From positions 378,963-442,962 of the forward strand of contig NZ_QNRT01000001.1 in assembly GCF_003315245.1 (NCBI RefSeq): DNA of 64,000 nt, written 5' to 3'. A program made the position numbers and the translations under genes. The notes beneath the pieces are model-generated. The model made no database searches, was not told where the DNA came from, and saw only the letters and a list, made by a program, of their open reading frames with translations. How positions within the stretch are numbered: position 1 is the stretch's first letter; each line of letters opens with the position of its first letter. This document shows, piece after piece, positions 2-63,985 of the stretch. This DNA is from Arenicella xantha. Its GTDB lineage: Bacteria > Pseudomonadota > Gammaproteobacteria > Arenicellales > Arenicellaceae.

Positions 2-667
2 TCTTTAGCTATTCGCTTTGCTGAGTCTTTGTCTCCAGGATTCCCAAGATTATATCTCGATGCCGACATAATACTAGCGACCGCGGATGCTAAAGCTCTA
101 TTCGATGCCGGAACCAAACAGGAAGCTCCCGCATTGATTGTACCCAGCTCAACTATCATCACTCAGCAAAGCCAAATGGCAGTTAAGCGCTTTTATAAAG
201 TGTGGTACAACACACCATTTGTTCAGCAACTTGGCTATGGCGCTGGGGCTTATTTGCTAAACCAGGCCGGTCGAAAACGATTCAATGAGTGGCCTCGTTT
301 GATCGCCGATGATGGTTTTGTTCGAAGTCAATTCAACACATCTGAAATACACATCCTGCATTCTTTAAAAGTTATAGTAAAAGCACCGCTTACTACCAGC
401 ATATTAATTAAAGTAAAAGCACGTTCAAAACTCGGGAATTTGGAACTAAAGCAATTTTTAAATGACCACCAATTTGAAGACCGCCATATCCTGGTTCCCA
501 AAAAAACAACCGAGAGTGAATTGGAAACTGATAGCATGGCAACAGCACCAATAAACGCCATCGATATACTGATTTACAAGTTGGTAAATATTGCTGCGTT
601 ACTGTTGGCAAGGTGGCAATTCTTTACAGGTAATGACTCATGGGCCAAAGACAACAGCAACCGCTAA
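2..667 (+). CDS. Family-2-like glycosyltransferase, 5' end cut by the window
   Basis: The frame is open from base 2, so the gene begins upstream; the TTG at 29 is only an internal leucine codon. The visible 222 residues start with a segment leading into LDADI, the acidic metal/nucleotide-sugar motif of GT-A glycosyltransferases, followed later by an ADDGFVR segment typical of the acceptor/catalytic region. It probably transfers a sugar during assembly of the surface glycan encoded here. The 3' end overlaps the next gene by 28 bp, so the two are in one operon. Acceptor and sugar cannot be read from the sequence. Confidence 0.65.
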   Translation, partial: SLAIRFAESLSPGFPRLYLDADIILATADAKALFDAGTKQEAPALIVPSSTIITQQSQMAVKRFYKVWYNTPFVQQLGYGAGAYLLNQAGRKRFNEWPRLIADDGFVRSQFNTSEIHILHSLKVIVKAPLTTSILIKVKARSKLGNLELKQFLNDHQFEDRHILVPKKTTESELETDSMATAPINAIDILIYKLVNIAALLLARWQFFTGNDSWAKDNSNR

Positions 668-42520: not shown

Positions 42521-42535
42521 TGAAGGAGCACCAGT

Positions 42536-43276
42536 TTGGCCGTCAGAACATACAGAAAAAGTACGGAAAATGAAGAAGAGAACCCTTACTGGGTGTCATT
42601 TTCAGACATTATGGCGGGCCTATTAGTCTTATTCATATTAGCCGCGTTAGCTCTCATCTTAGAATTAATGGCCACTAAGATTCGAGTAAGTCAAAGCCTC
42701 CAAGAACTCGTAAAGGCTGAGAGCGTGCGTGCAGATATTTTGCGTGAAGTCAGAGAGGAATTAGCAAAAGCCAATATTGTGGTTGAAATTGGTGATAATG
42801 ATACCGTTTTACGTATTCCTGAGAGCACCCTTACGTTTAAAACCAATAGGTTTGAAATCCCCGACAATGTTGAACTAAGAAACAGGGTTCGAGCAATAGG
42901 TTCGGTGCTTTCTCAAGCAATTCGAAAAGAAAACAGATGGGGATATCTTGATACTATCTTTGTAGAAGGTCACACCGATATTCGACCAAGCAATCGAAAT
43001 ATGGGTAACTGGGGCTTGTCTACTTTTCGTGCGGCTTCAGTCTGGTTGTTTTGGGAGGAATCGCTAGATAACAATAGCAAGCTAAGCTCATTAATGAACC
43101 ACAGCAATGCTCCTCTATTTTCTGTGAGCGGGTATGGAGAAACACGCCCCACACAAAAAATACAACAGACAAATGAGCAGCTTAGACAGAATCGACGAAT
43201 AGACTTGAGGATTACCGTTAAACGCCCAAAGAGCGAAGATATCAGAAACATTCTCAATGAATTCAGCAAAGGTTAA
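42536..43276 (+). CDS. zorB: Zorya defence protein ZorB
   Basis: A 246-residue MotB/ExbD-like protein: cytoplasmic N terminus, one helix at about 25-47 preceded by SFSDIMAG with Asp24 as the candidate proton carrier, and a periplasmic OmpA-like peptidoglycan-binding domain (VEGHTDIRPSN, then RRIDLRI) at about 130-232. TTG start at 42536 with AAGGAG 8 nt upstream. It pairs with ZorA in a 5:2 type stator anchored to the cell wall. Confidence 0.95.
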   Translation: MAVRTYRKSTENEEENPYWVSFSDIMAGLLVLFILAALALILELMATKIRVSQSLQELVKAESVRADILREVREELAKANIVVEIGDNDTVLRIPESTLTFKTNRFEIPDNVELRNRVRAIGSVLSQAIRKENRWGYLDTIFVEGHTDIRPSNRNMGNWGLSTFRAASVWLFWEESLDNNSKLSSLMNHSNAPLFSVSGYGETRPTQKIQQTNEQLRQNRRIDLRITVKRPKSEDIRNILNEFSKG

Positions 43277-43282
43277 TCGCTA

Positions 43283-47700: not shown

Positions 47701-48276
47701 GCCAACAAAACGAGCTGGAGCGATGCAGTGGTTGTCCCAGAACAGTTCTCGGAATCAGAGTTTGACTGCTTTGGCTTAGTAGGTGGTAACGAGGAGGCTA
47801 ATAACTCTCCAAGCATTACAATGGACGATGTGGATAGCGCCTCTTACGAGTGGTTTGAAGCGTTTTCAGCCTTGCTATTAGCCAAGCATTTCGACGGTAG
47901 TGTCGAACTAACCACGACAGGTGGTGATGATGGCATCGACAGCATAATTCGATCCATTAAGGCCAACTATGCAGTACAAAGCAAACACTCCAATAACCCG
48001 AAGCGCAGGAAATTGGCTTCTAAGGATGCCATTATAGAAGTTGAAACTGGATCTAAAGTTTATAGTCAATATTTAGAAATAGAGCTAGAAAAGGTTGTGA
48101 TTTCAAACCAGTTGATTGCCCGAAAAGTTAGGGGTTATGCAAAGATGTTTGAGCCAATCTATATTTTTGATCGTAATGGCATCGAAAAATTGATGAAAGC
48201 ACACCCATTGACTAAGCTACAAGTAAGCCAGCTCCTAAATAAAACTCGACTTGAAAAACCGGCTAAATTACTTTAG
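44794..48276 (+). CDS. zorD: Zorya defence protein ZorD (SNF2 helicase-nuclease)
   Basis: A 1160-residue SNF2-family ATPase fused to a nuclease. Walker A ADDMGLGKTF lies near residue 480, the DEAQ box (IFDEAQRIKN) near 620, and motifs V/VI (GVGLTIVGA, ATDRVYRIGQ) near 910-945. The C-terminal Mrr-like PD-(D/E)XK region has GGDDGIDSI and AVQSKH (D...QxK). In type I Zorya, ZorD degrades invading DNA. The N-terminal about 440 residues carry an acidic Ser-rich stretch near 390-400. All catalytic motifs appear intact. Confidence 0.95.
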   Translation: MTVKEIINSIFISEPSKNDSFTVDFEADAAYFLVENKAALDLLKLTNGSELATFQYIHLEMLAERGLAEPIPNGFKVPNEMVVQFNKDLRRLFELPSRFPGYFKIETVSQLDQAEFRLTIIPHLPNGEEVHHQHGYKIRGALIEIIGDAEYLMTSGEYLAFDAYSKHKSDSTTPTELRNLQLIHALQRAKKIDETESENPESSDELMESESMSIKLDQFDNIDVVLPTEVKVSLDPQGDGSYLLLPDYGNDIHQSDLVNRLAQLSHGERVGSLRVGHKRLILDERIMAATRELLGKGSRPKVITKDNLKKFLQNPSAFIDSTLINLDEGFSSRVLGLTDYIPVKFTEFEDSERDWFGEAPLEEAIIASEKIQRNAPQDHETSSDSDTESDSGSETGEQPSKKALAIHENIDGITYARDAQEYFSGKTINEVACKADIDWTKYRYKPYDYQEEGIRWIVGLAQQSMNIESNDMGKLGALLADDMGLGKTFMSLAALSEYMELCNKANKSHKPMLIVAPLTLMQNWKAEVAKFFGTENGPFRDIVILQADADLRKYRSNNHGGNEINLNRGANEASIKYALKVGGEYLNSRLDMPKRLVITTYETLAGYQFSLAKVDWSIVIFDEAQRIKNPNTLATIAAKGLKANFKLLATGTPVENGLNDFWCLMDTARPGYLSSYRDFNSKYMKPVSVANDESRSRIKVECGEALRKQVGALMCRRTKQDNLNGLPSKTVFVGTKETTGPEIYSEILDSTMSGYQEIVYDQIIKYVLNPEDTRKGKVLTALHALRNASLHPRLADDTGLKKLPTSMSDAQNIIAESSKLQKMTELLDQIKLRDEKVLIFLVNKDLQVFLKAALGKIYNLNIPIINGDVKATAKNPTAETRTSLIEQFEATPGFGIMLLSPIAAGVGLTIVGANNVIHLERHWNPAKEAQATDRVYRIGQIKNVNVYLPVTHHSNRLVKSYEQNLNDLLANKTSWSDAVVVPEQFSESEFDCFGLVGGNEEANNSPSITMDDVDSASYEWFEAFSALLLAKHFDGSVELTTTGGDDGIDSIIRSIKANYAVQSKHSNNPKRRKLASKDAIIEVETGSKVYSQYLEIELEKVVISNQLIARKVRGYAKMFEPIYIFDRNGIEKLMKAHPLTKLQVSQLLNKTRLEKPAKLL

Positions 48277-49177: not shown

Positions 49178-50344
49178 ATGAAATCTACATCAAACAAAGG
49201 TGGCTACATATACATAATGTCAAACCCAGATATCCCTAACTTAGTGAAAATTGGGTATACAACGCGCGTAGCTCATCAACGGACCGACGAGAATAGTAGT
49301 TGGGCTGGAGTCCCTTCGCAGTACAAGGTAGATCATGCATTCAAATCTGATAATCCACGTCAAGATAAAAAAAAAGCACACCGAGCGCTTAACTCCGTAC
49401 ACCATGATAAAGAGTTCTTTAAGTGCAGCGTAAAACACGCGTTTGAAGTTCTAGATAGAGAGCTTGGAGCGGCAGCTAAAGCCATTGAGGACAAGGAAAA
49501 GTTCACAAGACGTGCTCGAGCAGAAGCTAGAGATCGGCTTCGCTTGGTTGAGGAAGAAGGTCGACGGCAGAAGTGGGTAACCGACAAACTCAAACAAGAA
49601 CAATTACATCGAGGATTCTGTCAAACCTGTGGGGTATTTGGTTCGATAGGCCTTATTGCATTCGGTGTATATAGTTCCTCACCCCTTTTGTTTTGTTTAG
49701 GGTTCGTCTTAGCGGTATTGACTAAAGTTAGACTTGATGGCCTGCGACCTAAACCGATTCCAGATAGAAGTGATCTTGACCATCTTCGAAATGTATCACC
49801 GAAGAATAGTTTTCCGCGGCGAGCTATGGTTTTAGGTACAGCCTCTATTGTGGGAATAGTCATATGGAATATAAATTTAGACCAAAACCAATTGCGGGAA
49901 GGGAAGAAAGTTGAATCTTCTATTACGAAAAAAGCTCAAATTGAAGCCGAGAATCTAGAGTTTAATAATGAGCTTTATAGGGTGTATGAAAATATAGAAT
50001 CAAGACAGAAGACTGCTGAATTGAGCGCCCCTATTACGAAAAGGGCTCAAATTGAAGCCGAGAATCTAGAGTTTAATAATGAGCTTTATAGGGTGTATGA
50101 AAATATAGAATCAAGACAGAAGACTGCTGAATTAAGTGCCCCACAAGAGTCATATGCTGAGTATAAATGCATCACCATTGGCATGAAGATGAAGCAGATA
50201 CAGTCGATTCAAGGGAACCCTTCAACAGTACACAATCATACCAACGAAATCGTTTGGAGGTATGGAGTGAGTACGGTTGTTTTTGTTGAAGGGGTGGTCA
50301 CAGAGTGGTCAGATAAAGGGAATAACTTAAAATTGACTCGATGA
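49178..50344 (+). CDS. T5orf172 (GIY-YIG-like) membrane protein with internal repeat
   Basis: A 388-residue mosaic. Residues about 5-100 are a T5orf172/MUG113-like GIY-YIG domain (GGYIYIMSN, LVKIGYTTR, EFFKCS). Two hydrophobic segments follow (about 157-185 and 212-235), then two almost identical 37-residue Glu/Asn-rich helical repeats (about 248-284 and 285-321), and a C-terminal SmpA/BamE-like segment (TIGMKMKQIQSIQGNPS). The GIY-YIG module may be an effector nuclease or binding domain; membrane topology is unusual for it. It is isolated between two convergent terminator structures. Function unknown. Confidence 0.75.
   Translation: MKSTSNKGGYIYIMSNPDIPNLVKIGYTTRVAHQRTDENSSWAGVPSQYKVDHAFKSDNPRQDKKKAHRALNSVHHDKEFFKCSVKHAFEVLDRELGAAAKAIEDKEKFTRRARAEARDRLRLVEEEGRRQKWVTDKLKQEQLHRGFCQTCGVFGSIGLIAFGVYSSSPLLFCLGFVLAVLTKVRLDGLRPKPIPDRSDLDHLRNVSPKNSFPRRAMVLGTASIVGIVIWNINLDQNQLREGKKVESSITKKAQIEAENLEFNNELYRVYENIESRQKTAELSAPITKRAQIEAENLEFNNELYRVYENIESRQKTAELSAPQESYAEYKCITIGMKMKQIQSIQGNPSTVHNHTNEIVWRYGVSTVVFVEGVVTEWSDKGNNLKLTR
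49920..50141 (+). repeat. 111-bp tandem duplication inside the T5orf172 gene
   Basis: Units start at 49920 and 50031 (period 111 bp, 37 codons) and differ at only about four bases (two near the start, two near the end). In-frame repeat length preserves the protein. The near identity points to a recent duplication and probable copy-number variation among strains. Confidence 0.9.
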
Positions 50345-50374
50345 AGGTTAAGTGCCTAATTCATTAAGGTTTTA

Positions 50375-50401
50375 GAGGGCGACTAACGTCGTCGCCCCCT
50401 C
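50375..50401. terminator. Hairpin between convergent genes
   Basis: GAGGGCGAC (50375-50383) and GTCGCCCCCTC (50391-50401) form a GC-rich stem around a 7-nt loop, with extra cytosines bulged in the right arm. It lies 31 bp after the T5orf172 stop and just before the convergent toxin gene's 3' end. No clear T-tract follows on either strand, so it may work as a bidirectional terminator of modest strength. Confidence 0.45.
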
Positions 50402-50411
50402 AACACGCCTA

Positions 50412-50882
50412 CTAAAAAGCAGAATGCAAGTGAGGTAAGCGCTGCTCTATCGAAGCCATTATTTCTCTTTGATGTCCCCTTCTTATCTCTATATTCCCTT
50501 TCACCGCTTGATAAACGGCGACTAAGCAGTCATCGGTCAGCCAACCCTTAAAGACATTACGATAGTTCTGCGCAATTTCTTGCTTAAGGTCAGTACAATC
50601 AAAGGCACGGTGGGCCGCGACACAATTCGCGTATGAGTCGTGTGTTAGAAACGCATGACTCTCTGCATCTATCTCAACGTGAAACTGATCAGTATTGTTC
50701 ATATAAAAATATTGATTGATTTCTGAATTAATCATCAATACCAATAGTCTAGGCTCCATTGACGCGACAACCATGAACTTATGCTTGGGTGGGGTAGTGA
50801 AATCACAAAACTTATATATCACCGACCCAACTCTCAAGTTGTTTACTGCTAAAGTGGACAACGGATTGTGACCAACTTGCAT
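50412..50882 (-). CDS. Putative toxin of a Panacea-type toxin-antitoxin pair
   Basis: A 156-residue protein starting at ATG 50882 (AAGGA 8 nt upstream; a TTG at 50915 is less likely). The N-terminal half is strand-rich (GSVIYKFCDF, HKFMVVAS, LLVLMINS), loosely like a PemK/MazF-type SH3 barrel, but no family is certain. It lies downstream of the DUF4065 gene with only a 42-bp gap, the typical antitoxin-then-toxin order of PanAT. A toxin role is inferred from that position. Confidence 0.55.
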   Translation of the reverse strand: MQVGHNPLSTLAVNNLRVGSVIYKFCDFTTPPKHKFMVVASMEPRLLVLMINSEINQYFYMNNTDQFHVEIDAESHAFLTHDSYANCVAAHRAFDCTDLKQEIAQNYRNVFKGWLTDDCLVAVYQAVKGNIEIRRGHQREIMASIEQRLPHLHSAF

Positions 50883-50924
50883 ACAGCTTTCCTTGCCAGA
50901 AACACTCCGTAACAAACAGATGCT

Positions 50925-51440
50925 CTAGTTATACCTATTCTGATTCAGATTAATAAGAGCATCACTATTTTGAAGCGTAGATAGAATCGCTTCGACTGGA
51001 ATTAGTTGATTGCGCTGAGTGGCCTCCCATGCGGAATCATGACTTAACTCACCTAAGTCCTCTGTTTCACTTAGAGCAATCACTTCATCTAAACAAAGCA
51101 GATCAGACCCGCTAAACAAATCCTCGTCTGCTTCTCGCTCAGCACGAAGAACATGCTCCTCCACGAACCTTACAGGGGACTCAATAGAGAGCGGAAGCTC
51201 ACTTCCTGCTTTAATGGCTTTGATAAGGTCATAAGCTGCCGATGGCACAGGGCCACGCTGCATAGCCGAGTATGTATCATCAAAAATAAAGCGCCCATAG
51301 CGTTCCATATGTAACTTGTCAGCAAGGTAAAATACCTTCAAGACGTTATACATATTTCGCTTATGAGTTGGAGCGCGTTTCGCTATGTAAGCAAACGCTT
51401 CAAGGGTTCTTGAAATGCTCTCCTTCTGGATATTGTTCAT
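50925..51440 (-). CDS. Panacea/SocA-type (DUF4065) antitoxin
   Basis: A 171-residue protein with the DUF4065 signature: VFYLADKLHMERYGRFIFDD, then QRGPVPSAAYDLI (in part), found in SocA-like proteolysis adaptors and Panacea antitoxins. It would neutralise the adjacent toxin by direct binding. Its C-terminal extension (about 135-171) includes a short acidic stretch. First gene of a two-gene minus-strand operon next to defence genes. Confidence 0.8.
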   Translation of the reverse strand: MNNIQKESISRTLEAFAYIAKRAPTHKRNMYNVLKVFYLADKLHMERYGRFIFDDTYSAMQRGPVPSAAYDLIKAIKAGSELPLSIESPVRFVEEHVLRAEREADEDLFSGSDLLCLDEVIALSETEDLGELSHDSAWEATQRNQLIPVEAILSTLQNSDALINLNQNRYN

Positions 51441-51867
51441 AATCTATAAATAATCGAATAGAACTCCGAGTTACACACATATGATAGGGCCTATCAGAAT
51501 GAAACTAAAGGCCATTTGCGTAGAAAGCCAAACGCAAGACGCGAGAGCAACCTTCAAATTCAAGCGTGAAAATCAAAAGGGGTGATTCTCTGAAGCACCT
51601 TAACCCACAACAAATAGCTAACAAGGTTTCCATAACTTGAGCGACTAGCTCGACATCAGGCCCTGCGCCCTACAACCATCAATCAAGACTAAGTTAGCAC
51701 GACCAACTCTCTATTTTCAGTCTGCAATATATTGATTTTAATAAGAAAAGATGGTGGCTATGGGTGGAATAGCCACCATACCGTTGTAAGTCATTGTTTT
51801 CATGGTCTTACGATACTTCAGAACTGCAATGTATACGACCGTTGTAACAGACTAGATCAACCATACT
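51441..51867. other. Gap between the STAND gene and the toxin-antitoxin pair
   Basis: This holds the promoter of the toxin-antitoxin operon and a terminator for the STAND gene (listed separately). A 10-bp sequence ACCGTTGTAA recurs at 51780-51789 and 51838-51847. No gene is visible. Confidence 0.4.
51751..51779 (-). terminator. Strong terminator hairpin downstream of the STAND gene
   Basis: ATGGTGGCTAT (51751-51761) and ATAGCCACCAT (51769-51779) form a perfect 11-bp stem with a 7-nt loop. On the minus strand it is followed by CTTTTCTTATT, fitting a rho-independent terminator about 90 bp after the STAND gene stop. Confidence 0.75.
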
Positions 51868-54105
51868 TTAGTCGTCTACATCTACGAACAGCTTCTCTAA
51901 CTCCGTTGGTTCATGTCGTGTCGAGATTTCTGGTGCTGAGTCATGTTCTGGAGTCTCGTATTGCTCGTATAAGTCAGCAACATAATTGTCAATCTCCTTA
52001 GCTACGGCCTGCATAACTCCTGCCAATTGATCTTCAGGATAAATTCTTTCAGCAAAATTTTTGAGGTCGTCAGCAATAGGTTCAAAGTGATTTTCTGGGT
52101 CATAGTCAGAATCCCAACTATCCTTAAATTGGTCTAGATAGTAAGGGACGTTACCAAATACCTTTTCTTGGACTTCAAGCAATATTCCTTCTAACTCTTC
52201 CTCGGTCAGCAAGTCAGATATCGTGTAGTCGTCGATAACACTCGAATCAGCCTCAGTCGTTGCAGCTATTCTTGCGCTCTCAACAAATATTACTCTCCTT
52301 TGTTCGTCAATTAACCCTTGCTCATTCAAGGCACAGAATAGCGTAACGTCGCGGTCATCCCTCAATGGCGCATAAAACCAGTTAAACCTTTCTAATATTG
52401 ACGGTCGAGCGTCAATAACCTTTTTCGAAAACTTTTGATTTGACCTATACGAAAGAAATGTACAAAGCCTGCTTTCAGGAATGCTTGAAAGGCGATCAAA
52501 TAATAAATTATGCCGTGAATCAGGTATCACCACCGATACCCCACCGAGCTTACAACCTGCACATACAACTTCTTTTAGGATTGAATCTGTACTTGCACCT
52601 TTTAAATAGATATCAATTAACTCTGGAGTGCTCGCAACATAACTTGAGAAGGCATCACTAATTGTGGGGTGCTTATATGTCCAAAATGATCCTGTATCTC
52701 GTTCCATCAACACAAGTAGACTTCCGTTCAGTGCATCTAATTGGTCTCTAACGTCTGCTGCGGGAACACCGAATGCATCTGCTGCCCCCTTAAGCTTACA
52801 CGGCGTAACAGGTGACTCAACTTCTCCCTCATTCAGAAATATGAGACCAATCGCAGCCTTGCAATCAGCAGCTAAATTAAAAATCGTATCTCTTAGAAAC
52901 TGCTGGGGATTTTCAAAAAAACCACTGACGCTTTCCTGCGAAACATAAAGCTCTTTAGTGAAAAAATGAGACCCAAGCCTTCGTGCTGACTCTGGAAGAA
53001 AACTTTTTTTACCACACACTTCGGGTAAATATGGTTTAACTTTAGAAATGAATTTCTTATCTTGGTCTCCAAGCTTAAGATGATTGTAAAGTATTTGAGC
53101 TTTTTCTTGCTCTGAAAGCTCTTCAACATTGATGATCACCTGACTTTGTGTGAGCGCAGGAAGAGCATGTAATTTTAAATCTTTCTGCGCAGAGTTCCAA
53201 ATATAGTCTCTCGAAGTTATTAGGAACTTTGACCCTGCGTGCATAGCCGCCTGCATCAATGGAAATATTTGATTCCACGCTTCAGTCCTATCTTTTTGGT
53301 ATTGAGTATTGCCCCATGCATCATCGATCCAAAAAAATTGATTTGCTGCGGAACTTAAATGCCGTTTCACATCCTCTGGTGAGGTTGCCCTGATAGTTGC
53401 AGATTTCCAAATATCTGATGCACCAATTGCTAAGCTAGCACCGATGGTCGACTTTCCAGCCGCTGGTGCGCCTAACAACAGGACAAAATTATATGAAGTT
53501 ATAGCTTTGACACTCTTTTTGTGGGCATCCGTAATCACCAATTTCTCAAGATCATTTCCCATTGCACTCAATATTAATCTTGCTTGATCGTATGCTCTGG
53601 CATCAAGCAATTCACTAAGGTCCCCTAGACCATAAAGGCGAGGCGCCATCATTCGCAAATTCGGAGTGGTCTTGATTTTTTTGACTATCCAACCATGATC
53701 AAATACACGACAATTACCTGCTCCAGCTTTTTTAAAAGCTATCTTTATCTTTAACTCGCTGACTCCCGTAATCTTGTGATTGGTCAAGATGATGTAGTCT
53801 TTGACTAATCCCTCGCTGGCTAGTTTACGAACTTTCTCAATTTCGCCAGACAGCATAGAGAGTGTTAAATTAAGATCAGGCTTAGACGTGAATTTACACT
53901 GAATAGTGGACTCTCCAGCATTGTCGTCATCCTCGCTCCACGCTCCGACAAACGCACCATCGCGTCCACCATCATTTGTATCCAAAAAACTTTGAACGGG
54001 TCGTTTTAGACATTCCTCAGCGATCACGAGCGAGATATCTTGAAAGGCTTTCCACCCGAGAAGATGCAGAGGATATTCTGAGTTTTGTGATAACAGTGAA
54101 ATCAT
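51868..54105 (-). CDS. Mrr-like nuclease fused to a STAND NTPase (nSTAND3-like)
   Basis: A 745-residue predicted defence protein. The N-terminal domain has NDGGRDGAF (Asp45/Asp49) and IQCKF (Gln69, Lys71), the Mrr-type PD-(D/E)XK pattern. A STAND NTPase follows, with Walker A LLLGAPAAGKST near residue 213 and Walker B FFWIDDAWG near 262. The C-terminal about 350 residues are helical sensor-like and end in an acidic tail. Such proteins oligomerise on sensing a phage component and activate the nuclease. It is shorter than classical Avs proteins and lacks obvious TPR repeats. Confidence 0.8.
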   Translation of the reverse strand: MISLLSQNSEYPLHLLGWKAFQDISLVIAEECLKRPVQSFLDTNDGGRDGAFVGAWSEDDDNAGESTIQCKFTSKPDLNLTLSMLSGEIEKVRKLASEGLVKDYIILTNHKITGVSELKIKIAFKKAGAGNCRVFDHGWIVKKIKTTPNLRMMAPRLYGLGDLSELLDARAYDQARLILSAMGNDLEKLVITDAHKKSVKAITSYNFVLLLGAPAAGKSTIGASLAIGASDIWKSATIRATSPEDVKRHLSSAANQFFWIDDAWGNTQYQKDRTEAWNQIFPLMQAAMHAGSKFLITSRDYIWNSAQKDLKLHALPALTQSQVIINVEELSEQEKAQILYNHLKLGDQDKKFISKVKPYLPEVCGKKSFLPESARRLGSHFFTKELYVSQESVSGFFENPQQFLRDTIFNLAADCKAAIGLIFLNEGEVESPVTPCKLKGAADAFGVPAADVRDQLDALNGSLLVLMERDTGSFWTYKHPTISDAFSSYVASTPELIDIYLKGASTDSILKEVVCAGCKLGGVSVVIPDSRHNLLFDRLSSIPESRLCTFLSYRSNQKFSKKVIDARPSILERFNWFYAPLRDDRDVTLFCALNEQGLIDEQRRVIFVESARIAATTEADSSVIDDYTISDLLTEEELEGILLEVQEKVFGNVPYYLDQFKDSWDSDYDPENHFEPIADDLKNFAERIYPEDQLAGVMQAVAKEIDNYVADLYEQYETPEHDSAPEISTRHEPTELEKLFVDVDD

Positions 54106-54198: not shown

Positions 54199-55836
54199 TT
54201 AACCAGATTTTTCAACAACGTCATTAACCTTATCGATAATAGCGATAATTTCTGGGTCTAGGCTGTCACCATTTTTTTGCATTAGCCTAGCTCCCTTCGC
54301 CCCCAGCACCTGCTTTATACGTTCCTTAGAGCCCATTTTGGCTCGATTCCAGAGCAATGCTGAATAACCAGAAATTCTAGCATCACCCGACCAATTTGGA
54401 TCAAAGTCGCTATCAGTTAAAGGCGGGTCAGGTTGAAATTCAGAGTTGAATACTTCAAGAGCTATGGAAGGTGGAAAATAGTCTTCAATTGTCCCTTTAG
54501 AGAGGACGAAAATTTCTCGAATATTTGCCAATCCGCCAGCAGCCATCCTGTGTTCTAACTCGCTCTTTGTGCCCTGAGCATCGTTGTCTAAAACAATCAC
54601 ACACGGAATATCATAACTATTCAACAAATCGACAATTAACGAAGTCTTAGTATTATCTGAACCGCCAATATTGATTAAGGCTATTCCTAATCTAAATTCA
54701 CTAAGACCCTGCATCTCCAAAAATGTCGGAAAACTCTCCTCTTCGGTATTACCTTCAACTAGTAAGGCACAATTGCCCCCTCCTTTTAGTAATGCGTCCG
54801 AAGCTCGAATACCCAAATCATCTCTGACCGAAGAGAGTTCATCCGCCCTAAAACTTCGACTAACGGTATTTCCCTGTATTGTTCTACTTAAAAGCACGTT
54901 ACTTTCATATTTACTTCGGTCTATGAATACTGGGGAGTGAGTTGTAACAATGACTTGAGTGTTTTCACTAATTTCTTGGATCACACTAAGTAATTGCCTT
55001 TGAGCTTTGGGATGTAAGCTATTCTCGGGTTCTTCCATCGCAAATATGAATGTACCCAAAACGTTGGTCTTGGCAATAAGTCTAAATAGAGCGATTATGA
55101 GGTTACTTTGTGTGCCCGCTCCTCGGTCTTCAATATTTATGTTACTAGCACGATCGTCAGATAAAGAAATTGAAAATTTGACTCCCTCTGTAGGATCAAT
55201 CGTCAGTTCATCGAAACCGACTTTAAAAGACTCGTTATTGAGCTGCTCTCTAAGGAACGCCTCAATATCTAAGCGAGGCTCAGTCAGTGATTCTCTAAGA
55301 ACAGCAATAACCTCCTCCAACTGAGTTCTCGATCCTTGCTCTTCAATTGCTATCTTCATTCTTGCTCTCAACAACTTCCCCAACATTGCCGCTTTATTCA
55401 TAGAAAATTGAATATTTAAATCACGTCTAACTGGGATGAAGTGGAAGTTATCTGACGAAAACCATTTTGATTGAACGTTGCTGGGCACAGTCAAGACAGT
55501 ATTATCCGATAGCTCTGCTTGCCATGTCGCATTTTGATTAAACTTAAATAGCTTGTTAATTACAACGCTTCCATCGTCTCGCAAGAAGGGTTGGATAAGA
55601 TCGCAATCGCCAAAACTCTTAAACGTAATTACAATCGATATATCAACATCAGTCTCATCCTTATACCAATCTTTAGAAGAGCTTAACTTTTTCACCCCAA
55701 AGAATGTTTCTAATGCAATTAGGAAAGACGTCTTCCCTACATCGTTTTCGCCAATTAGCACGCTGAATTTTTCAATTGGCACACTAACGTTCTTCAGCGC
55801 TCTAAAGTTTTTAATGTCAACATTTACGATTTGCAT
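54199..55836 (-). CDS. OLD-family ATPase-TOPRIM nuclease
   Basis: A 545-residue protein with an ABC-type ATPase: Walker A GENDVGKTS (residues 28-36), SNLIIALFRL signature region, and Walker B FAMEEPENSLHP. A TOPRIM domain follows (LLVEGNTEE near 350, VIVLDNDAQG near 410). OLD-family enzymes cleave phage DNA or act with a UvrD partner (Gabija). No UvrD-like gene is adjacent, so it is either a stand-alone class 1 OLD or works with the STAND protein 93 bp downstream. Confidence 0.85.
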   Translation of the reverse strand: MQIVNVDIKNFRALKNVSVPIEKFSVLIGENDVGKTSFLIALETFFGVKKLSSSKDWYKDETDVDISIVITFKSFGDCDLIQPFLRDDGSVVINKLFKFNQNATWQAELSDNTVLTVPSNVQSKWFSSDNFHFIPVRRDLNIQFSMNKAAMLGKLLRARMKIAIEEQGSRTQLEEVIAVLRESLTEPRLDIEAFLREQLNNESFKVGFDELTIDPTEGVKFSISLSDDRASNINIEDRGAGTQSNLIIALFRLIAKTNVLGTFIFAMEEPENSLHPKAQRQLLSVIQEISENTQVIVTTHSPVFIDRSKYESNVLLSRTIQGNTVSRSFRADELSSVRDDLGIRASDALLKGGGNCALLVEGNTEEESFPTFLEMQGLSEFRLGIALINIGGSDNTKTSLIVDLLNSYDIPCVIVLDNDAQGTKSELEHRMAAGGLANIREIFVLSKGTIEDYFPPSIALEVFNSEFQPDPPLTDSDFDPNWSGDARISGYSALLWNRAKMGSKERIKQVLGAKGARLMQKNGDSLDPEIIAIIDKVNDVVEKSG

Positions 55837-56295: not shown

Positions 56296-57007
56296 CTTTC
56301 GCCTCTATATGCCTGCACTTCGGAAAGGCGCTGCATGCCCAAAACTCCTTGCCTACATTCTTTCCTTTTTTGGCAATTTTCATCGCCATGCTAGAAGAGC
56401 ATTTCGGGCAAACTTTTTCAGAAGTTGATTTGACACTAGCTATCTCTGGAGCTGATTTTCTTCCAGCAAATTCTGGGGCAATCTTAGCTTTGATCGATTC
56501 TATTTGAGGCAAATGTGCAGACAAAACCTCATTAATATCTGTTACTTGATATGTAGCTTTGGCGGGGATTTGGACTAGTGGCATTCCTGCCGATTTGCAC
56601 GCACTTTCTAAGAATCTATCTCTTTCTTTTCCCTTCTTAGAATTATGACTTTTATCGTTTAATTCAATAGCACAGATAGGCGAAAGATCATCTTTATCGC
56701 AAATTATGAAGTCAAAATGCTTACTAGATATCTTATTGAACGCCTTTTGCCAAGCACTCCTATCTTGGCCTTTTCTAGGCGTTATGACATCGGCAACTCG
56801 AACCTTTCCAAATACCTCGAACTTATTTGTCAGGGAGAGTTTTAGAACTCCTAGGAATGACCTCTCAGCTGCTGTAAACAAAATATTGAGTTTTTGATAC
56901 TGTAGGTTTCCAGCACCCTGAAGTTTCCTTGGCGATTGCTTTACAATTATTGCAAATGCAATAAGTACAATTACTATAGTGAATGCAGCGATCAGTATCG
57001 AATCCAT
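56285..57007 (-). CDS. DUF2726 protein with topoisomerase-type zinc ribbon
   Basis: A 240-residue protein: one N-terminal helix (about residues 3-23), a DUF2726 domain (about 40-170; AAERSFLGVLK, then ICAIELNDKSHN, a PD-(D/E)XK-like pattern, FDFIICD) and a C-terminal zinc ribbon CPKCSSSM...CSAFPKC like zf-C4_Topoisom. DUF2726 is thought to be a nuclease-like domain; the membrane tether would place it near incoming DNA. It is the first gene of a minus-strand run with the broken small gene and OLD. Confidence 0.75.
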   Translation of the reverse strand: MDSILIAAFTIVIVLIAFAIIVKQSPRKLQGAGNLQYQKLNILFTAAERSFLGVLKLSLTNKFEVFGKVRVADVITPRKGQDRSAWQKAFNKISSKHFDFIICDKDDLSPICAIELNDKSHNSKKGKERDRFLESACKSAGMPLVQIPAKATYQVTDINEVLSAHLPQIESIKAKIAPEFAGRKSAPEIASVKSTSEKVCPKCSSSMAMKIAKKGKNVGKEFWACSAFPKCRHIEAKDGK

Positions 57008-57246
57008 GATCTTTCTATCTCTTGTCTAAATTGAAATTTCCACCCAAGTAAGCCAATTGGATTGGTTCCAAAACAATTATTACTGTTGGAGTTTATATTC
57101 AAACATGAGCTAACACCTCACTCAAGTATTTTTCACCAATCCCCATAGTCAATTGAAATCAGATTGCTCATCGATAATTTTAAGTAATTTAAATGGACTG
57201 CTCGCTAGCACTACGACTCTGATCTATATGCAGTGATGAATCACTT

Positions 57247-57420
57247 TTAGTTAGATTCTACTTCGAGATCATCAGGTGCCCTCTCGAATTTTTTGCACAA
57301 GTGATTACGGTGGGGAATAAGAAATAGCTTGTTATCGACCTTATTAGCCGAGTGCCTGCACCTCCAACCCAGCCCTAGCCCGACAAGCCGCAGACAGTAT
57401 CTACAAATTGAACAAGACAT
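57247..57420 (-). CDS. Small Cys/His-rich protein
   Basis: From ATG 57420 (AAGGTG upstream), 57 residues with CSICRYC, GWRCRH and HRNHLCKKF: at least five cysteines and three histidines spaced as in zinc-binding peptides of phage and island origin. An in-frame upstream extension to 57546 is less convincing. The product could bind zinc; partner unknown. Confidence 0.45.
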   Translation of the reverse strand: MSCSICRYCLRLVGLGLGWRCRHSANKVDNKLFLIPHRNHLCKKFERAPDDLEVESN

Positions 57421-57791
57421 ATCACCTTCGTAAGTGTACTCGTGATCGGTTGAATGAGTGTGGTTGATGTTTTCACCCCATATAAATACAAGTGATGAGT
57501 TGTTTAATCTTAGTTTGGGATTGAGGGGGCGGGATGTCGAACTCAACTTGGCATCTCGCTCCCCGTGGCTTCCTAACGTCCCTCAATATTGTAAAACATA
57601 TAAATACGCAATGAGGGGGAGAAACCAGCAAAATTGAAAAATTTATAAATACACCTTGAGATAGTAGAAAACGAGCACACCACCGTAGGACAACTTCTCC
57701 CTCGAGCCGCTGATTCAAAACCATTTAGGATAGCTCCCTATATTAGGTTAGTTGCACCCACAGTAAACTTAACCTCATAAAAATTATTAAA
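57421..57791. other. AT-rich gap before the first HUH-like gene
   Basis: Contains the promoter of the plus-strand HUH-like gene (no clear consensus) and a minus-strand 83-codon frame at 57473-57724 with no coding features. Nothing else is supported. Confidence 0.35.
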
Positions 57792-58526
57792 ATGACTATA
57801 AAAACTGAAGGAAATACTCATATAAATCATCAGCTTTCCCTATCAACAAAAAATGATTTTATTAATAAAAGGAATAAGCGATTTAATTTTTCAAAACACG
57901 AATTTAATGAATTCAGCTCTCGCACCCAAGAATATTTAGATAAAACGAATACTAGAATAGCAAGACATGATGTTATTAAATGGATAAAGAGTGAGAAACC
58001 TATTGCTGCTATTACAATGGTTTTTAATTGTGCAATTAATCACGATCAAAGCATCGATCTTCTAAATCGCTTTTATGGCTGCCTATGTAAATATCAATTT
58101 GGCAGAACTTACAAAAAGAGAAATGAATTCATTTCGATGTTTGCGTTTCTCGAGAATGCTGTTAAGGATAAAAACAAGCAAACGTCCCTAAAACACGAAG
58201 ATTCAAACCACTTTCATCTAATTTTATGTGATGACAATGCCATCTTCGATGACACTAGTTCCATAGTTATAGATATCGAATCTGCCAGATGCCAAGCAAA
58301 TAGTGATTTTAAAAAGGCCATGTTGGCCGATAACACTGATAAGTGTTTTGTCCCGCAAATAACAAGATGCAAAGTTCAGGAATACTTCAATCATGGTGAT
58401 GATGGACTGGAAAACTATGTAACCAAGAATCTCGAAAACCACGCTAGAAATAATGATCTGAAATTTGATCAAATAGCCTATCCTAGCATCGAGGGCTTCA
58501 CCTTCGGAGAAAGAGTATATAACTAG
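57792..58526 (+). CDS. Putative HUH endonuclease, replication-initiator-like
   Basis: A 244-residue protein showing the three rolling-circle replicase motifs in order: motif I ITMVFN (residues 74-79), motif II HFHLIL (140-145, the HUH pair), and motif III YVTK (209-212; Tyr209 the nucleophile). It would nick a single-strand origin and join ends. It recalls Rep proteins of small satellites or inoviruses. No phage structural genes are nearby. It is followed by a paralogue. Identification is motif-based and by eye. Confidence 0.55.
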   Translation: MTIKTEGNTHINHQLSLSTKNDFINKRNKRFNFSKHEFNEFSSRTQEYLDKTNTRIARHDVIKWIKSEKPIAAITMVFNCAINHDQSIDLLNRFYGCLCKYQFGRTYKKRNEFISMFAFLENAVKDKNKQTSLKHEDSNHFHLILCDDNAIFDDTSSIVIDIESARCQANSDFKKAMLADNTDKCFVPQITRCKVQEYFNHGDDGLENYVTKNLENHARNNDLKFDQIAYPSIEGFTFGERVYN

Positions 58527-58865
58527 CACTCAAACCGCCTCATTGCCCGCGCAAGCCGCGCGACAGCACACAGAGGCCACTTCCTGAATCAGCCGAACTT
58601 AGAGCCCCAGAGAGCGAGTCACCCCCCCTAGACGCCGCAATAGACACACCCACACGCCACCTGAAATCAAAAGACGACACTGAACATGAATTTCAGATAT
58701 AACGTTTCAATATCAATGGTTTAGCTAAATAAAATTCATTTATCAAATCATTTCAATAAGTTAATGTTATGGACTATCTGATTCTCATGTTGATTGATTA
58801 AAACTCAAAGGCATCCGTTTTTCTGGACTTATAAATACTCATATAACGATTAATCACAAACAACA
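58527..58865. other. C-rich spacer between HUH-like paralogues
   Basis: Bases 58530-58680 are strongly C-rich and T-poor, unlike the AT-rich flanks, and contain a short inverted GCGC-rich element (CCGCGCAAGCCGCGCG near 58546-58562). Such strand-biased composition can mark a nick site, single-strand origin or recent insertion. No gene found. Confidence 0.4.
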
Positions 58866-59549
58866 TTGAGTAGGAAACCAATAATGAAAACTAATCTTAA
58901 TAACTCGTCCAATGAGCTCTCATCTCTAGAAGAATATCAACTACAAAAAATGAACTTTATGGGCATGAGACTGCGCTATTTTGAACAACTGCAACCAAGG
59001 CTAAAACGGTATATTTCGGCCGCTTGCGGAAAACCAAACGCCGACAAAATACATAGCTGGATCAGGTCAGAAAAACCAATCATACATCTTACTTTTTCAA
59101 TTAATGGAATGGTCAGCAGTGCTGAATCAATATATATTTTGAACAGATTTTATGAACGACTTAACCAAAGCATCGGCCCAACAAAAGATGGATGCACTCG
59201 CTTATATGCTTTCTCGAGTGATTTACTACTAGATCAAAGTCTATCCAGAACCAATTTTTCTAGTTCTACTAATATTGAAGCCATTTTTTGCGACCCCGAT
59301 TCTATTTTCACTAATCCTGAATTGATAAAATCGCTAATACGCGATGCTTTAATATGGGCTATTAATGAAATGAAAACATGGAAGGGCTTTGTAGATGACA
59401 CTGAAATCATCAATTTAACAATAGCCGACATCCCCATGAATCAGGCTTTCAAAACTAGACACTTTGATTTACGTACGAGCGTAGAGTTTGATTGCATCGG
59501 ATTTCCGAGTAACGGTGGCATCCGATTTAGCCGTGCTATAAGTGACTAA
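58866..59549 (+). CDS. Inactivated HUH-like paralogue
   Basis: A 227-residue paralogue of the previous protein. The N-terminal half aligns well (IRSEKPIIHLTFSIN, ILNRFYERL, CDPDSIF), and the ends agree (FPSNGGIRFSRA). Both catalytic parts are gone: the HUH position reads NIEAIF with no histidine, and no YxxK follows. It may bind the same DNA as a repressor or regulator of the active protein. Start is ambiguous; a downstream ATG at about 58884 would also do. Confidence 0.5.
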   Translation: MSRKPIMKTNLNNSSNELSSLEEYQLQKMNFMGMRLRYFEQLQPRLKRYISAACGKPNADKIHSWIRSEKPIIHLTFSINGMVSSAESIYILNRFYERLNQSIGPTKDGCTRLYAFSSDLLLDQSLSRTNFSSSTNIEAIFCDPDSIFTNPELIKSLIRDALIWAINEMKTWKGFVDDTEIINLTIADIPMNQAFKTRHFDLRTSVEFDCIGFPSNGGIRFSRAISD

Positions 59550-59561
59550 ATCAAATTCATG

Positions 59562-60128
59562 CTACCTCTTGATTTTTTTGGCTTGTTCTTGGGTTAATTC
59601 ACTTACTAACACCGCGCTTGCTTCATCGAATACCTTAAGCAACGTATACAAGTTTCGATGCTCCCGTTGAATCATTTCATCTTGTTTATCTAGCTCTATG
59701 ATCAACGCCCTACAACTAGGATCCGATGCAGCATCAAAACCCATAAGCATGTGATGAATTAACCTGTTTCGTTCAGAAACCAAGAATGAAAACGCTGCTT
59801 TTTGTTGAGCTAAAGAGCTATCTTCATTGTCGATCTTGAAACTGAGGGACACCCATGGTTCGTCCCTTCCTTCAGGATACTTATGAATATCCTCGACGCT
59901 TCTATCAAAGGATTTGAAATACTCTTTAGCTAGCACTCCCATCGTTTTGTTTTCAATCGACATTTTACGCTGAACCAACGTCTCTGAAACTTTGCTCACG
60001 GGTGATTGAAAATTACTTGCACCGACAAATTGCTTCAACATGCCCTCGATCTTCTGAAAGTTCAGTACGTTTCTACCGATTTTCCTAAGTGCCAATTCTT
60101 TTAAATCATCCACATGAATAAAGGCCAT
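59562..60128 (-). CDS. HEPN-like protein
   Basis: A 188-residue helical protein with RNRLIH at residues 120-125 in a helix (SERNRLIHH), matching the HEPN RNxxxH ribonuclease motif. HEPN proteins are often toxins or RNases in defence systems. No NTase antitoxin is adjacent. The start ATG is at 60128. The role as an active RNase is inference from the motif. Confidence 0.55.
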   Translation of the reverse strand: MAFIHVDDLKELALRKIGRNVLNFQKIEGMLKQFVGASNFQSPVSKVSETLVQRKMSIENKTMGVLAKEYFKSFDRSVEDIHKYPEGRDEPWVSLSFKIDNEDSSLAQQKAAFSFLVSERNRLIHHMLMGFDAASDPSCRALIIELDKQDEMIQREHRNLYTLLKVFDEASAVLVSELTQEQAKKIKR

Positions 60129-60268
60129 CTAGCCCTACCTAGTATTCCATCAAAAATTTCATCAAGAAATATATGCCTACTGTTGCGACGAGCGAGTTCC
60201 AATTCATCTATAACAATAGTCAATCTATTTTATAAATGAATGATATTGGCCTGTAGAGATAATCACAA

Positions 60269-60730
60269 CTACTCTGACTCCTTCCGGATACGTGCGATAA
60301 GGTCTCTATGCCTAAACAATACTGGTTTTATATCGTTATAGATTCTATGTGATGCCCCAATATTCTCTCCATCACTAATCGTGATCGTATCGTTCGAAGT
60401 TTTAACGGCCTTAGTTTTAGTGATATCTACACATTCATAAATGGCAGAGCTTCTTGAATTAACGCCACCGGTCCAATAATTAGCCTTCATCTTCGTGTCA
60501 TGAGACAACTTCCTAAAATGTGTACAGCCCCTTGACGAAGACACTAGAGCGGCCTTTGCTTCTATCCATGTCAACATCATAGTACCGTCGAATATATAAC
60601 CATCTTTAGAAAACACATCAAAGGTGTACGGAGAGGACGGGTCATCAATAACATTAAATTTCGGCGCAGTAGCACACCCAGACATGAAGCATAGAATAAT
60701 AGCCAGTGCTGCTAATTTAGTGATTTTCAT
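60269..60730 (-). CDS. Small lipoprotein of unknown function
   Basis: A 153-residue protein with a signal peptide and lipobox (FMSGC, Cys18-19), so it is anchored to the outer or inner membrane. The mature part has about four cysteines and an Asp/Lys-rich surface. Family not recognised. The start overlaps a minus-strand frame by ATGA, suggesting either an upstream partner gene or chance. It lies within the recombinase region of the island. Confidence 0.65.
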   Translation of the reverse strand: MKITKLAALAIILCFMSGCATAPKFNVIDDPSSPYTFDVFSKDGYIFDGTMMLTWIEAKAALVSSSRGCTHFRKLSHDTKMKANYWTGGVNSRSSAIYECVDITKTKAVKTSNDTITISDGENIGASHRIYNDIKPVLFRHRDLIARIRKESE

Positions 60731-61125: not shown

Positions 61126-61734
61126 ATGACTATGAATACCGCAGCAAAAAATGATCGTAATGTGACAAGTTTTACAAATCCATCTATTGATCGCTCAAAG
61201 GATAGGAATTTCATCACAGTAACTGAACTCGATTTATTATTAAAAGGCGCGTCCAAGACTCGTCATCCAATTCGAAACAAAGCAATATTACTTACTATGT
61301 TTTGGCACGGACTTCGCGTTACTGAGCTCTGCGAACTCAATCGAAATGATTTAGATGAAAAGAATGCTCGCTTGATTGTCAAACGACTAAAAAATAGCTT
61401 ACCAACAACGCAGCCTATTCGCCCAGATGTTTTACGCAACTTGAAGAAGTATCTTAAGATACGTCAAAGCAATCAGAGATCACTATTTCTGAACGAGAGA
61501 AACGATCAGTTTGTGAGACGCGGAATTAACCACCTTTTAGAACAATGCTCAAAACTTGGCGGCTTACCCTTTCATGTTAATCCGCATATGCTTCGCCATG
61601 GATGCGGTTACGCTCTTGCTGAGTTAGGCCACGACACTCGATTGATACAAGACTACCTCGGTCATAAAAACATTCAGCACACCGTAATTTACACTCGCAC
61701 ATCAATTAAACGATTTGAGGCAATTTGGGACTAA
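61126..61734 (+). CDS. FimB/FimE-like tyrosine recombinase
   Basis: A 202-residue recombinase with catalytic R64 (HGLRVTE), H154xxR157 (HMLRHGCG), H180 (YLGHKN) and Y189 (VIYTR), all present. The length and C-terminal block (DTRLIQDYLGH...F-IWD) closely follow FimB/FimE, which invert a promoter segment for phase variation. No core-binding domain is present, as in FimB. The HEPN-like gene starts directly after its stop. No matching invertible repeat pair was located here. Confidence 0.8.
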   Translation: MTMNTAAKNDRNVTSFTNPSIDRSKDRNFITVTELDLLLKGASKTRHPIRNKAILLTMFWHGLRVTELCELNRNDLDEKNARLIVKRLKNSLPTTQPIRPDVLRNLKKYLKIRQSNQRSLFLNERNDQFVRRGINHLLEQCSKLGGLPFHVNPHMLRHGCGYALAELGHDTRLIQDYLGHKNIQHTVIYTRTSIKRFEAIWD

Positions 61735-62397
61735 ATGGTAAATCTGAATTTTAATGCTGTTGCTTTTGAGCAAAAATTTCATCTGGGATATCTAGTGCGC
61801 TACATGGATACCATGGAGCTACAATTCAAGACTCTTTACAGCGAAACGAAAACCAAGGTTCATGAGGAGCTTAAGCAATCGGGCATAGATGAAAATAGTG
61901 AAGACTATCAACTAGAAATGTCTGTTATCGAACATCAGTTTGTTGATAAGTATCCTCAGATTTTCCGAGAACAAATGCTTGCCTCTATTTGAGGATTTAT
62001 CGAGTCATCGGTATTTGATACCGCTGAATTTTTTAAAAGAAGGCTTGAACATAAATTGTCCCTAAAAGATACTCGCGCTAGAACACCTCAACAACAATGG
62101 AAGAAGTACTTCTCACATATTTTGAAGCTGAACTTGCAAATCGAAGCTAATCTTTCAGAGCGACTTAGTCGTATGCAAAAAGTACGCAACATTTTGGTTC
62201 ACACTGGAGGACTGGAATATCAAATCAAAGAAGCAAATCGAGTCGAATTATTGAAAATAGTACCTTTAGAAGAAGGTTTAATCATCAGCGGATCAAATAT
62301 TGAAATCGACCCCATTTATTTGAGAAACCAAACGGTGTCAGCTAAATCGGTCAATTCAATTTTGACAGATATGATGAAACACCCCGAACAATTCTAG
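61735..62397 (+). pseudogene. HEPN-domain gene interrupted by an in-frame TGA
   Basis: The frame starts at ATG 61735, abutting the recombinase stop, and reads 85 codons to TGA 61990-61992. The same frame continues 21 codons to a TTG at 62056 and on to 62397. Across the TGA it reads MLASI-x-GFIESSVFDT, fitting the conserved helix of HEPN proteins, and RNILVH later matches the RNxxxH motif. A TGG-to-TGA change is the simplest explanation. The downstream piece might be re-initiated, which would retain the HEPN motif. Confidence 0.7.
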
Positions 62398-62407
62398 CTC
62401 TAGTACT

Positions 62408-63985
62408 TCACTTAGGCCGCCATAATCTTATTCTAGAAAAATCAATCCCGTAATCCATAGCCTCTATCATTTCTGCTTTCTTAGCTAAACTCAAAGTATG
62501 CGTATATCCGCCCGTAATCGTAGTATGAGTATGCCCAACTAGCTCACCTATCCTAGACAATTCATAGCCTTGAGAATCCCACAGGTGCTGCACAGCGGTA
62601 TGTCTAAAAGAATGAAAGACTTTCTTACTCTTCCCGATGTCTTCAATTCCGCATTTGCGCTTGTACGTATCTCGAAACCATCTACCTAACGCATGGTTGT
62701 GTTTTCCGTTTACTACCTTAATTTCTGGAAATAAGGCATTGCTACCTTGATTGATCACAGTCTCAACGTATCCAAGAAATCCTAGTTCAATCAACTTCGA
62801 ATGTATTGGCACAACCCTTCTTGCGGCTGGTGTTTTAAGCTCCTTGTCTTCTTCTTCATTAATATCTATATACGTAACTACCCTGTGATCAATTTTTTCG
62901 TGCCGAATATCTGAAACCAGAAGTTGGCAAATTTCATTTGACCGTGCCCCAGTAAATAACGCTAACAGGGGGGCCCAATAATTGGATGCCTTTGTGTGCT
63001 TTCCCTTCAAGTACTCATCGCTATAAAATAACTTTTCTAGGTCACTTTTGTCGAAAGGTAGATATGGATTTTTTTCTTTAGTTGTAAATTCTTTCTCGAT
63101 CGCCGTAGCAGAAATCGGATCGATATAACCCTTCTTGACGAACTCTTGTAAGAAGCTTCGAATAGTTCGCGCATACTCCTTCAGAGTATTTTTTGCCAAA
63201 GTATTATATGTGCCAAATTGTTGCTCAATAATCTGGTCAATACTCAGACCTTGATATCTTCCATTGTTTCTATTCGTAGGGATTTTTGGAAGAACCTCTA
63301 CAAACTTCTCTACATCCCTATACGTTAACTCACATGATTGGCGGTCGCCCACATATTCGATAAATGTTTTCAAATAGCTTCTGTAAAGCTTAATCGTCCT
63401 CGGGTTAATTCCTTTTCGTTCCAATCTGGCTGAGTGCTTTTCAGCCAGATTACTTAGCAGTTCTGTTTGATTCGTGTTTTTTTGAATAGTCTCGTCATGC
63501 CTCTCACTACCCACCGCCATGTTAGTTTGGGCTCGATAGGCACTAAGATCAATTCCTTCAGACGAAACCCACTCCATAGCCACTCTTTCAGCTTCGGTCA
63601 TTGACATCCAAAGATGCTCCCTCTCTAAAGCATCCCACTCAGCGATGGCATTATATCTTTCAGTAAAACTCAGAGCCGATCTAATCAACCCAGCCTCGTA
63701 TAGCTCTTGATGCTGAGACTCTTCTTCAATTTGAAGAAATTCTTGATAGTCATTATTTGATTTGTCCGTTGAAGACTTGTCACCCATCATTAATTTCCTC
63801 TCAAGTGTGTTCCAATATCGACGAGCCAAATGGATTGCTTGACCTTTGTTTTTTGTCCTTAAAGATTTTCTAAATAAAGGCGGTTTTAAACCCAGTTTTG
63901 TCGCTTCAGATATAGAGATTCTTATCTGGAAATAATACACACCATGCTTAGTCTTAGTAATGTATGAACCTTGCCTGCGAGTCAT
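62408..63985 (-). CDS. Site-specific tyrosine integrase of the island
   Basis: A 525-residue integrase: N-terminal DUF6538-like DNA-binding domain (HGVYYFQIRIS), a core-binding domain (about 180-300) and a catalytic domain with R in TGARSNE, H-x-x-R (HSFRHTA) and a final GHTHTTITGGYTH block carrying His and Tyr. It is the likely integrase of the defence island. An attachment site or tRNA was not seen, and the gene lies at the right edge, so the att site may lie outside. Confidence 0.9.
   Translation of the reverse strand: MTRRQGSYITKTKHGVYYFQIRISISEATKLGLKPPLFRKSLRTKNKGQAIHLARRYWNTLERKLMMGDKSSTDKSNNDYQEFLQIEEESQHQELYEAGLIRSALSFTERYNAIAEWDALEREHLWMSMTEAERVAMEWVSSEGIDLSAYRAQTNMAVGSERHDETIQKNTNQTELLSNLAEKHSARLERKGINPRTIKLYRSYLKTFIEYVGDRQSCELTYRDVEKFVEVLPKIPTNRNNGRYQGLSIDQIIEQQFGTYNTLAKNTLKEYARTIRSFLQEFVKKGYIDPISATAIEKEFTTKEKNPYLPFDKSDLEKLFYSDEYLKGKHTKASNYWAPLLALFTGARSNEICQLLVSDIRHEKIDHRVVTYIDINEEEDKELKTPAARRVVPIHSKLIELGFLGYVETVINQGSNALFPEIKVVNGKHNHALGRWFRDTYKRKCGIEDIGKSKKVFHSFRHTAVQHLWDSQGYELSRIGELVGHTHTTITGGYTHTLSLAKKAEMIEAMDYGIDFSRIRLWRPK

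Follow-up and report, generated by a model that had tools for sequence, protein, structure and literature searches.

A putative Rep-type HUH initiator and its catalytically dead paralogue in a tRNA-Met island of Arenicella xantha

Two adjacent and related genes, here called P1 and P2, lie near the right-hand end of the window, the whole 64,000-nt stretch of the Arenicella xantha genome that was analysed (Table 1). Their surroundings have the features of a tRNA island: a tyrosine integrase gene adjoins a tRNA-Met gene just past the window end, and the 3' end of that tRNA gene is repeated exactly, over 17 bp, as a direct repeat at the far border, with the second copy outside the window at 64074-64090. 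Taking this repeat as the border defines an island of about 12.3 kb (51752-64090), although the left border at 51752 is not certain. Of the 12 relative loci with sufficient flank, five have a hairpin (TCAGCC..GGCTGA) directly after the tRNA 3' end, perhaps representing the unoccupied state. This hairpin is absent from both island junctions and from the entire window, and hence further inserted DNA may extend to the left of 51752 and include, for example, the Zorya genes described below. The cargo includes defence-like genes, among them those for an nSTAND3 protein and an OLD/GajA-like ATPase, together with genes for a DUF2726 protein and a short invertase-type recombinase. The earlier note had suggested that P1 and P2 formed a minimal satellite or transposon; the integrase, tRNA-Met and repeat bear out the mobile-element setting, but the pair is contained within a larger island rather than constituting a minimal element.

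Table 1. Features of the island and of the noncoding DNA around P1 and P2, in window coordinates
Feature	Position	Strand	Basis or remark
Left attachment-like repeat, identical to tRNA-Met 3' end over 17 bp	51752-51768	+	second copy in L012
nSTAND3 protein (PDC-S73-like), cargo	51868-54105	-	
OLD/GajA-like ATPase with TOPRIM domain, cargo	54199-55836	-	
Three WTATAAATAC copies (57480, 57598, 57643), each with TGAG 3-6 nt after	57480-57652	+	
Conserved noncoding block preceding P1 and the orthologue; candidate origin and/or promoter-leader	57641-57790	+	alignment, blastn
P1, putative HUH initiator of one-tyrosine Rep type, 244 aa	57792-58526	+	ORF, motifs, orthologue
P1-P2 spacer, GC-rich, C-rich, T-poor (60% GC, 9.7% T)	58527-58680	.	
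Fourth clustered WTATAAATAC, 45 nt ahead of P2 ATG	58829-58838	+	
P2, P1 paralogue without HUH histidines, E or tyrosine, 221 aa	58884 (ATG)-59549	+	BLASTP, alignment
Short tyrosine recombinase, DNA-invertase type	61126-61734	+	Phage_integrase E 1.1e-35; NF007370 E 7.1e-49, below curated cut-off
Tyrosine integrase of island, adjoins tRNA-Met	62408-63985	-	Phage_integrase E 2e-14
tRNA-Met gene, just past window end	64074-64150 (= L012:3037-3113)		read in L012

Several neighbouring loci merit description in their own right. To the left of the island border, four genes at 40578-48276 match the complete set of type I Zorya components (ZorA, ZorB, ZorC and ZorD), and the interval between these and the border (49178-51440) encodes a T5orf172 protein, which matches PDC-S57, as well as a protein of the Panacea (SocA-like antitoxin) type. 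By eye, the T5orf172 gene contains an in-frame tandem duplication at 49934-50150, with two near-identical copies 111 bases (37 codons) apart. HEPN RNases are characterised by an RNxxxH motif, which is resembled, by eye, by the ERNRLIHH of a 188-aa protein without a family match that is encoded at 59562-60128; a 113-aa ORF at 62056-62397 contains RNILVH, and its HepT-like match is weak and below cut-off (E 4e-4). Elsewhere in the genus, three genomes (L056 in G003:C68, G012:C133 and G002:C7) contain matches of 46 to 51 bases to the tRNA-Met 3' part at sites apart from the full-length gene, which suggests this tRNA gene is an integration hotspot.

P1 contains the sequence NHFHLI, in which H140-F-H142 forms the HUH motif, preceded by E121 and followed 67 residues later by the YxxK of ENYVTKN (YVTK, 209-212), with Y209 and K212; together with a predicted motif-I-like hydrophobic strand at residues 70-78, these are arranged in the order I-II-III. 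The strict pattern HUHuu-45..110-YxxK was present in one of the 45 window ORFs of at least 150 aa starting with ATG, and shuffling P1 20,000 times reproduced it 58 times, although the P1 ORF had been picked out of the whole window by the earlier note. A loose form was found in two of these ORFs and 347 of the 20,000 shuffles. All of E121, H140, H142, Y209 and K212 are identical in the single orthologue of P1, which is weak evidence alone, as 65% of all positions are identical anyway. The comparison of these two genes (pN 0.22, against a saturated pS of 0.77) indicates that P1 is under purifying selection. The motifs ascribed to P1 from its sequence are therefore present and retained in the orthologue, and it is likely, but unproven, that P1 is an HUH nuclease.

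The homology of P1 and P2, which the earlier note had set out beforehand as a point on which its proposal could fail, was upheld: BLASTP aligned them with 52 of 211 residues identical (25%, E 1e-11), a profile of P1 and its orthologue matched P2 (E 1.2e-13), and the orthologue was recovered with P2 as the query (E 9.8e-14). P2 was translated from the ATG at 58884, whereas the automatic ORF list begins it at a TTG at 58866. In agreement with the earlier description of lost histidines and tyrosine, the HUH histidines of P1 are replaced in P2 by N and E, and E121 by S, and the tyrosines of P2 (18, 32, 43, 84, 90 and 108) are all N-terminal to the HUH position. Hence, whichever fold it adopts, P2 cannot function as a tyrosine HUH nuclease. 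Blocks common to both proteins include WI(K/R)SEKPI, LNRFY, CDxxxIF and FDxxxxPSxxGxxF, and the main helices and strands are predicted in the same order in each, although the same three sequences lie behind both predictions, which are not independent. P2 is 24-28% identical to P1 and to the orthologue, and about equally far from both in a direct comparison (24 and 26%), implying that its branch predates the divergence of P1 and the orthologue, unless it evolved unusually fast. At this level of identity P2 is probably old, yet its 221-aa frame is intact, without a stop or frameshift. No copy of P2 accompanies the orthologue, such that the pairing is found at one of the two loci.

Structure prediction, proposed by the earlier note as a check, gave a divided answer for P1. 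Mean AlphaFold pLDDT was 53.3 for P1 and 54.8 for P2, using three-row alignments. The core predicted for P1 consists of a strand (70-78), a helix (84-100), two strands (115-121 and 140-146, the latter with HFH), a further helix (155-176) and a final strand (188-193), and this beta-alpha-beta-beta-alpha-beta arrangement, with HFH on the third strand, is compatible with a Rep-type HUH domain. On the other side, the YxxK segment was modelled as low-confidence coil (block pLDDT 39 and 31), which speaks against the assignment because the catalytic YxxK motif is always helical in HUH enzymes, according to the available portion of PMC5714925. Comparisons with known structures were similarly equivocal. 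Foldseek found no match to P1 in the PDB at E <=0.001, the best being a SAM-AMP lyase (E 0.03), with a parvovirus NS1 nuclease tenth. VIA-align listed 50 matches for each protein. Those which we take, from their titles, to be HUH nucleases numbered four for P1, which are AAV Rep domains (Z 6.5-6.6 over 116-122 residues, with rmsd 3.5-4.2), and six for P2, which are parvovirus B19 NS1 and five entries for HUH-type transposases (Z 6.2-6.6). Other entries in these lists, among them peptidase domains, multidrug pumps and de novo ferredoxins, scored equally or higher. In a viral structure library, P1 had no match at E 0.001 or better, with several parvovirus NS1 entries from E 0.01, whereas P2 had one at that level, its best, to a putative metalloprotease of a poxvirus (E 7e-4, TM 0.28). 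With pLDDT at 53-55 and HUH structures ranking level with unrelated ferredoxin-like folds, the models make an HUH fold of P1 compatible, not shown.

Sequence libraries offered few relatives. P1 matched no Pfam or NCBIfam family, and its PHROG matches reached only E 0.0076 and 0.014; all family-library matches of the orthologue were at E 0.02 or worse, and searches of PDB sequences returned chance matches alone. Rep_trans (PF02486) was absent from the Pfam matches of both P1 (E up to 1) and the orthologue (E up to 0.1). The orthologue itself is in a genome of the same genus (G015, probably an Arenicella), on the minus strand at L007:8911-9642, while P1 and P2 were the sole matches when the A. 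xantha genome (G000) was queried with P1. Searches of whole genomes with P1 or its profile found two positives among 18 genomes of the genus, 21 of the family and 109 of the order, always G000 and G015. The class sample of 369 genomes, evidently without G015, contained two, G000 and G423, the latter (E 0.0038) being an HflK-like protein by eye that was dropped as false, and the phylum sample of 398 contained G000 alone. Five scans of viral contigs revealed no further relative; genome contigs yielded no match to P1, and one to the P1/orthologue alignment, which was the G015 locus again. Among plasmids, P1 had no match at thresholds of E 0.01 and E 10, nor did P2 at E 1, and the two matches to the orthologue, at E 8, were taken as chance; phages yielded nothing for P1 at a threshold of E 0.1, or for the orthologue at E 10. 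The evidence base is therefore three proteins at two loci.

The neighbourhood of the orthologue includes an integrase gene, matched by PHROG at E 9.3e-18 and by Pfam below cut-off, and genes for a resolvase and an HTH protein; no bounding direct repeat of at least 13 bp was found there. When 11 island proteins were compared with L007 by tblastn, P1 and P2 alone matched beyond chance, both at the orthologue. The noncoding DNA preceding the gene is also conserved: the 150 nt upstream of P1 and of the orthologue had a local alignment score of 108, relative to a maximum of 56 in 200 single-base shuffles, and blastn against the orthologue locus gave 79% identity over 62 nt (E 6.2e-8). This block occurs once in its own genome, and although 12 of the 18 genus genomes matched it at E up to 1, the best match outside G000 and G015 covered about 21 nt (E 0.047). 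By contrast, the DNA downstream of P1 scored 48 against that of the orthologue, a value reached by 11 of 200 shuffles, so the region proposed in the earlier note for nicking (58530-58680) is not conserved beside it. Judged by sequence conservation, the upstream block is a better candidate for the origin than the P1-P2 spacer. A Rep and its origin being retained while the cargo changes is the pattern expected of a replication module, although a promoter or leader would give the same picture. The search for hairpins in the proposed origins gave none that was significant (z 0.47 for the upstream block, -1.58 for that of the orthologue).

Other noncoding features were examined around P1 and P2. 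Four of the six copies of WTATAAATAC in the 64 kb (0.53 expected) cluster before P1 (three) and P2 (one); the motif, which was chosen after inspection of the sequence, may be a regulatory site common to both genes. Allowing one mismatch, TATAAATAC was found nine times in L007, relative to 7.08 expected, and was not enriched beside the orthologue. Over 150 nt, the spacer reaches the highest GC content of the island portion covered by the window, and the lowest T content of the window as a whole. It was considered as a repeated element, with 14 of the 18 genus genomes matching at E up to 1, and rejected as no shared element was seen in the nine loci inspected; the best match outside G000 (E 2.6e-4 over 28 nt) is inside an ORF. 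Nothing reached the gathering level in Rfam, below which were two chance matches to eukaryotic snoRNAs, and seven sigma-70-like promoters were found in 57000-60300, against 10.9 expected. A repeat family, D1 (57658, 58509 and 59916), was judged to be chance.

The interpretation we favour, with a probability of roughly 0.4, is that P1 is a divergent Rep-type HUH initiator of the integrative island, and that P2 is an old, dead paralogue acting as a DNA-binding or heteromeric regulator. The integrase would excise the island at the tRNA-Met repeat, and P1 would bind the conserved block of about 150 nt upstream of its own gene, where it would nick one strand via Tyr209, with the metal held by H140 and H142, thereby priming replication of a rolling-circle type. 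P2, having kept the DNA-binding and interaction parts but lost the active site, would occupy the same sites, or form inactive heteromers, and so damp the expression of P1 or initiation. We infer the HUH fold and nicking by P1, the location of the origin, excision and the role of P2, which might include the competition or copy-number regulation put forward in the earlier note. In favour of a Rep is that P1 and P2 were the only island proteins with counterparts at the G015 locus, where the upstream block was also kept; counted against it are that no helicase and no circular form were seen, and the orthologue lacking a P2 counts against the model of a pair.

Three alternatives need to be weighed against this. 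It is unlikely, yet deserves serious consideration, that neither protein is of the HUH type, and that both are instead other ferredoxin-like island proteins, such as regulators or parts of defence systems, with HFH and YxxK arising by chance and the upstream block being a promoter or operator. The dearth of useful library or PDB matches for P1, the unrelated ferredoxin-like folds ranking level or higher, the persistence of P2 without any catalytic residue and the defence-like genes of the island are all in keeping with this; however, all five candidate catalytic residues are kept at 65% identity, few shuffles reproduce the strict motif pattern, and both the order of the motifs and their position on the strands agree with those of Rep nucleases. 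That P1 is an active Rep, and P2 a useless relic drifting after duplication, we regard as improbable: the loss of all catalytic residues and the missing P2 beside the orthologue would follow naturally, but drift is difficult to reconcile with an intact and probably old frame that has retained the blocks in common with P1.

A quite improbable third explanation is that P1 serves transposition or conjugative mobilisation, rather than replication of the island. IS200/IS605-type (Y1) transposases have a compact HUH fold with the tyrosine after the HUH motif, and transposases of the HUH type are among the fold matches of P2, but unlike these elements P1 has no further copy in the genome, where the upstream block is also single. 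No transposon ends were found around P1 and P2 in a search that was not exhaustive. As for mobilisation, Mob proteins carry their motifs in reverse, with the tyrosine before the HUH (III-II-I), as described in the available part of PMC5714925; as Y209 of P1 follows H140 and H142, as in Reps, the classification of P1 as an HUH relaxase (MOB) was rejected.

Returning to P1 as a Rep-type initiator with P2 as its regulator, a broader proposal, which is itself unlikely, is that control of replication is built into a bacterial integrative defence island through a pair of HUH initiators, one active and one dead, of which P2 would bind the origin or the live Rep and set copy number. They would be a bacterial two-gene counterpart to the inactivated HUH origin-binding domains of papillomaviruses and polyomaviruses, from a Rep lineage absent from the searched libraries. 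If P1 does nick DNA, then these libraries miss such a lineage, and Rep-bearing islands are under-counted in bacteria of this kind. If P2 regulates P1, then duplication followed by loss of the active site would be a simple route to replication control in an integrated element.

Among named families, the YagK/YfjJ C-terminal proteins (inovirus Gp2-like, PF11726) resemble P1 in being island-borne and of similar length. Locally, HYHLILC of YfjJ aligns with HFHLILC of P1, and HYH and YxxK are invariant across seven aligned members of the family, where P1 has HFH and YxxK. For this comparison, 67 plasmid records and one phage record were matched, from which seven stretches were taken and six aligned with YfjJ, leaving out that of the phage (L036). 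However, PF11726 (YagK_YfjJ_C / inovirus Gp2) had no hmmscan match in P1, nor any in the 18 genus genomes. Without controls, hhalign of alignment A1 scored 21.1 against YfjJ alone (12 columns, probability 2%) and 13.3 against the seven-row family alignment; alignment A2 scored 17.5 against those seven rows, relative to 18.4 for the best of 100 column-shuffled controls, and membership of P1 in this family was rejected. The likeness is best treated as an analogy.

A parallel in organisation is offered by integrated bacterial plasmids, whose one-tyrosine Rep-type HUH endonucleases (such as those in PMC6668415) share with P1 the order I-II(HUH)-III(YxxK) and an integrase-bearing island with an attachment repeat. 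In most groups of the viral-like, helicase-fused bacterial Reps, 97.5% of genes sit in site-specifically integrated elements, according to the same source. P1 differs from the Reps of integrated plasmids in having neither detectable sequence similarity to a library family nor a helicase domain, and in adjoining a dead paralogue. No bacterial pair of a live and a dead HUH protein is reported in the titles and abstract openings of the papers listed, and the matches listed for Arenicella genomic islands contained nothing on point. Rather, the precedent for P2 comes from viruses: the excerpted account in PMC6668415 has the initiators of papillomaviruses and polyomaviruses containing an inactivated HUH domain without all three motifs, such that a dead HUH-derived domain binds DNA at the origin. 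In these viruses the dead domain is fused to an SF3 helicase in one protein, whereas P2 is a separate protein, encoded beside an apparently live one.
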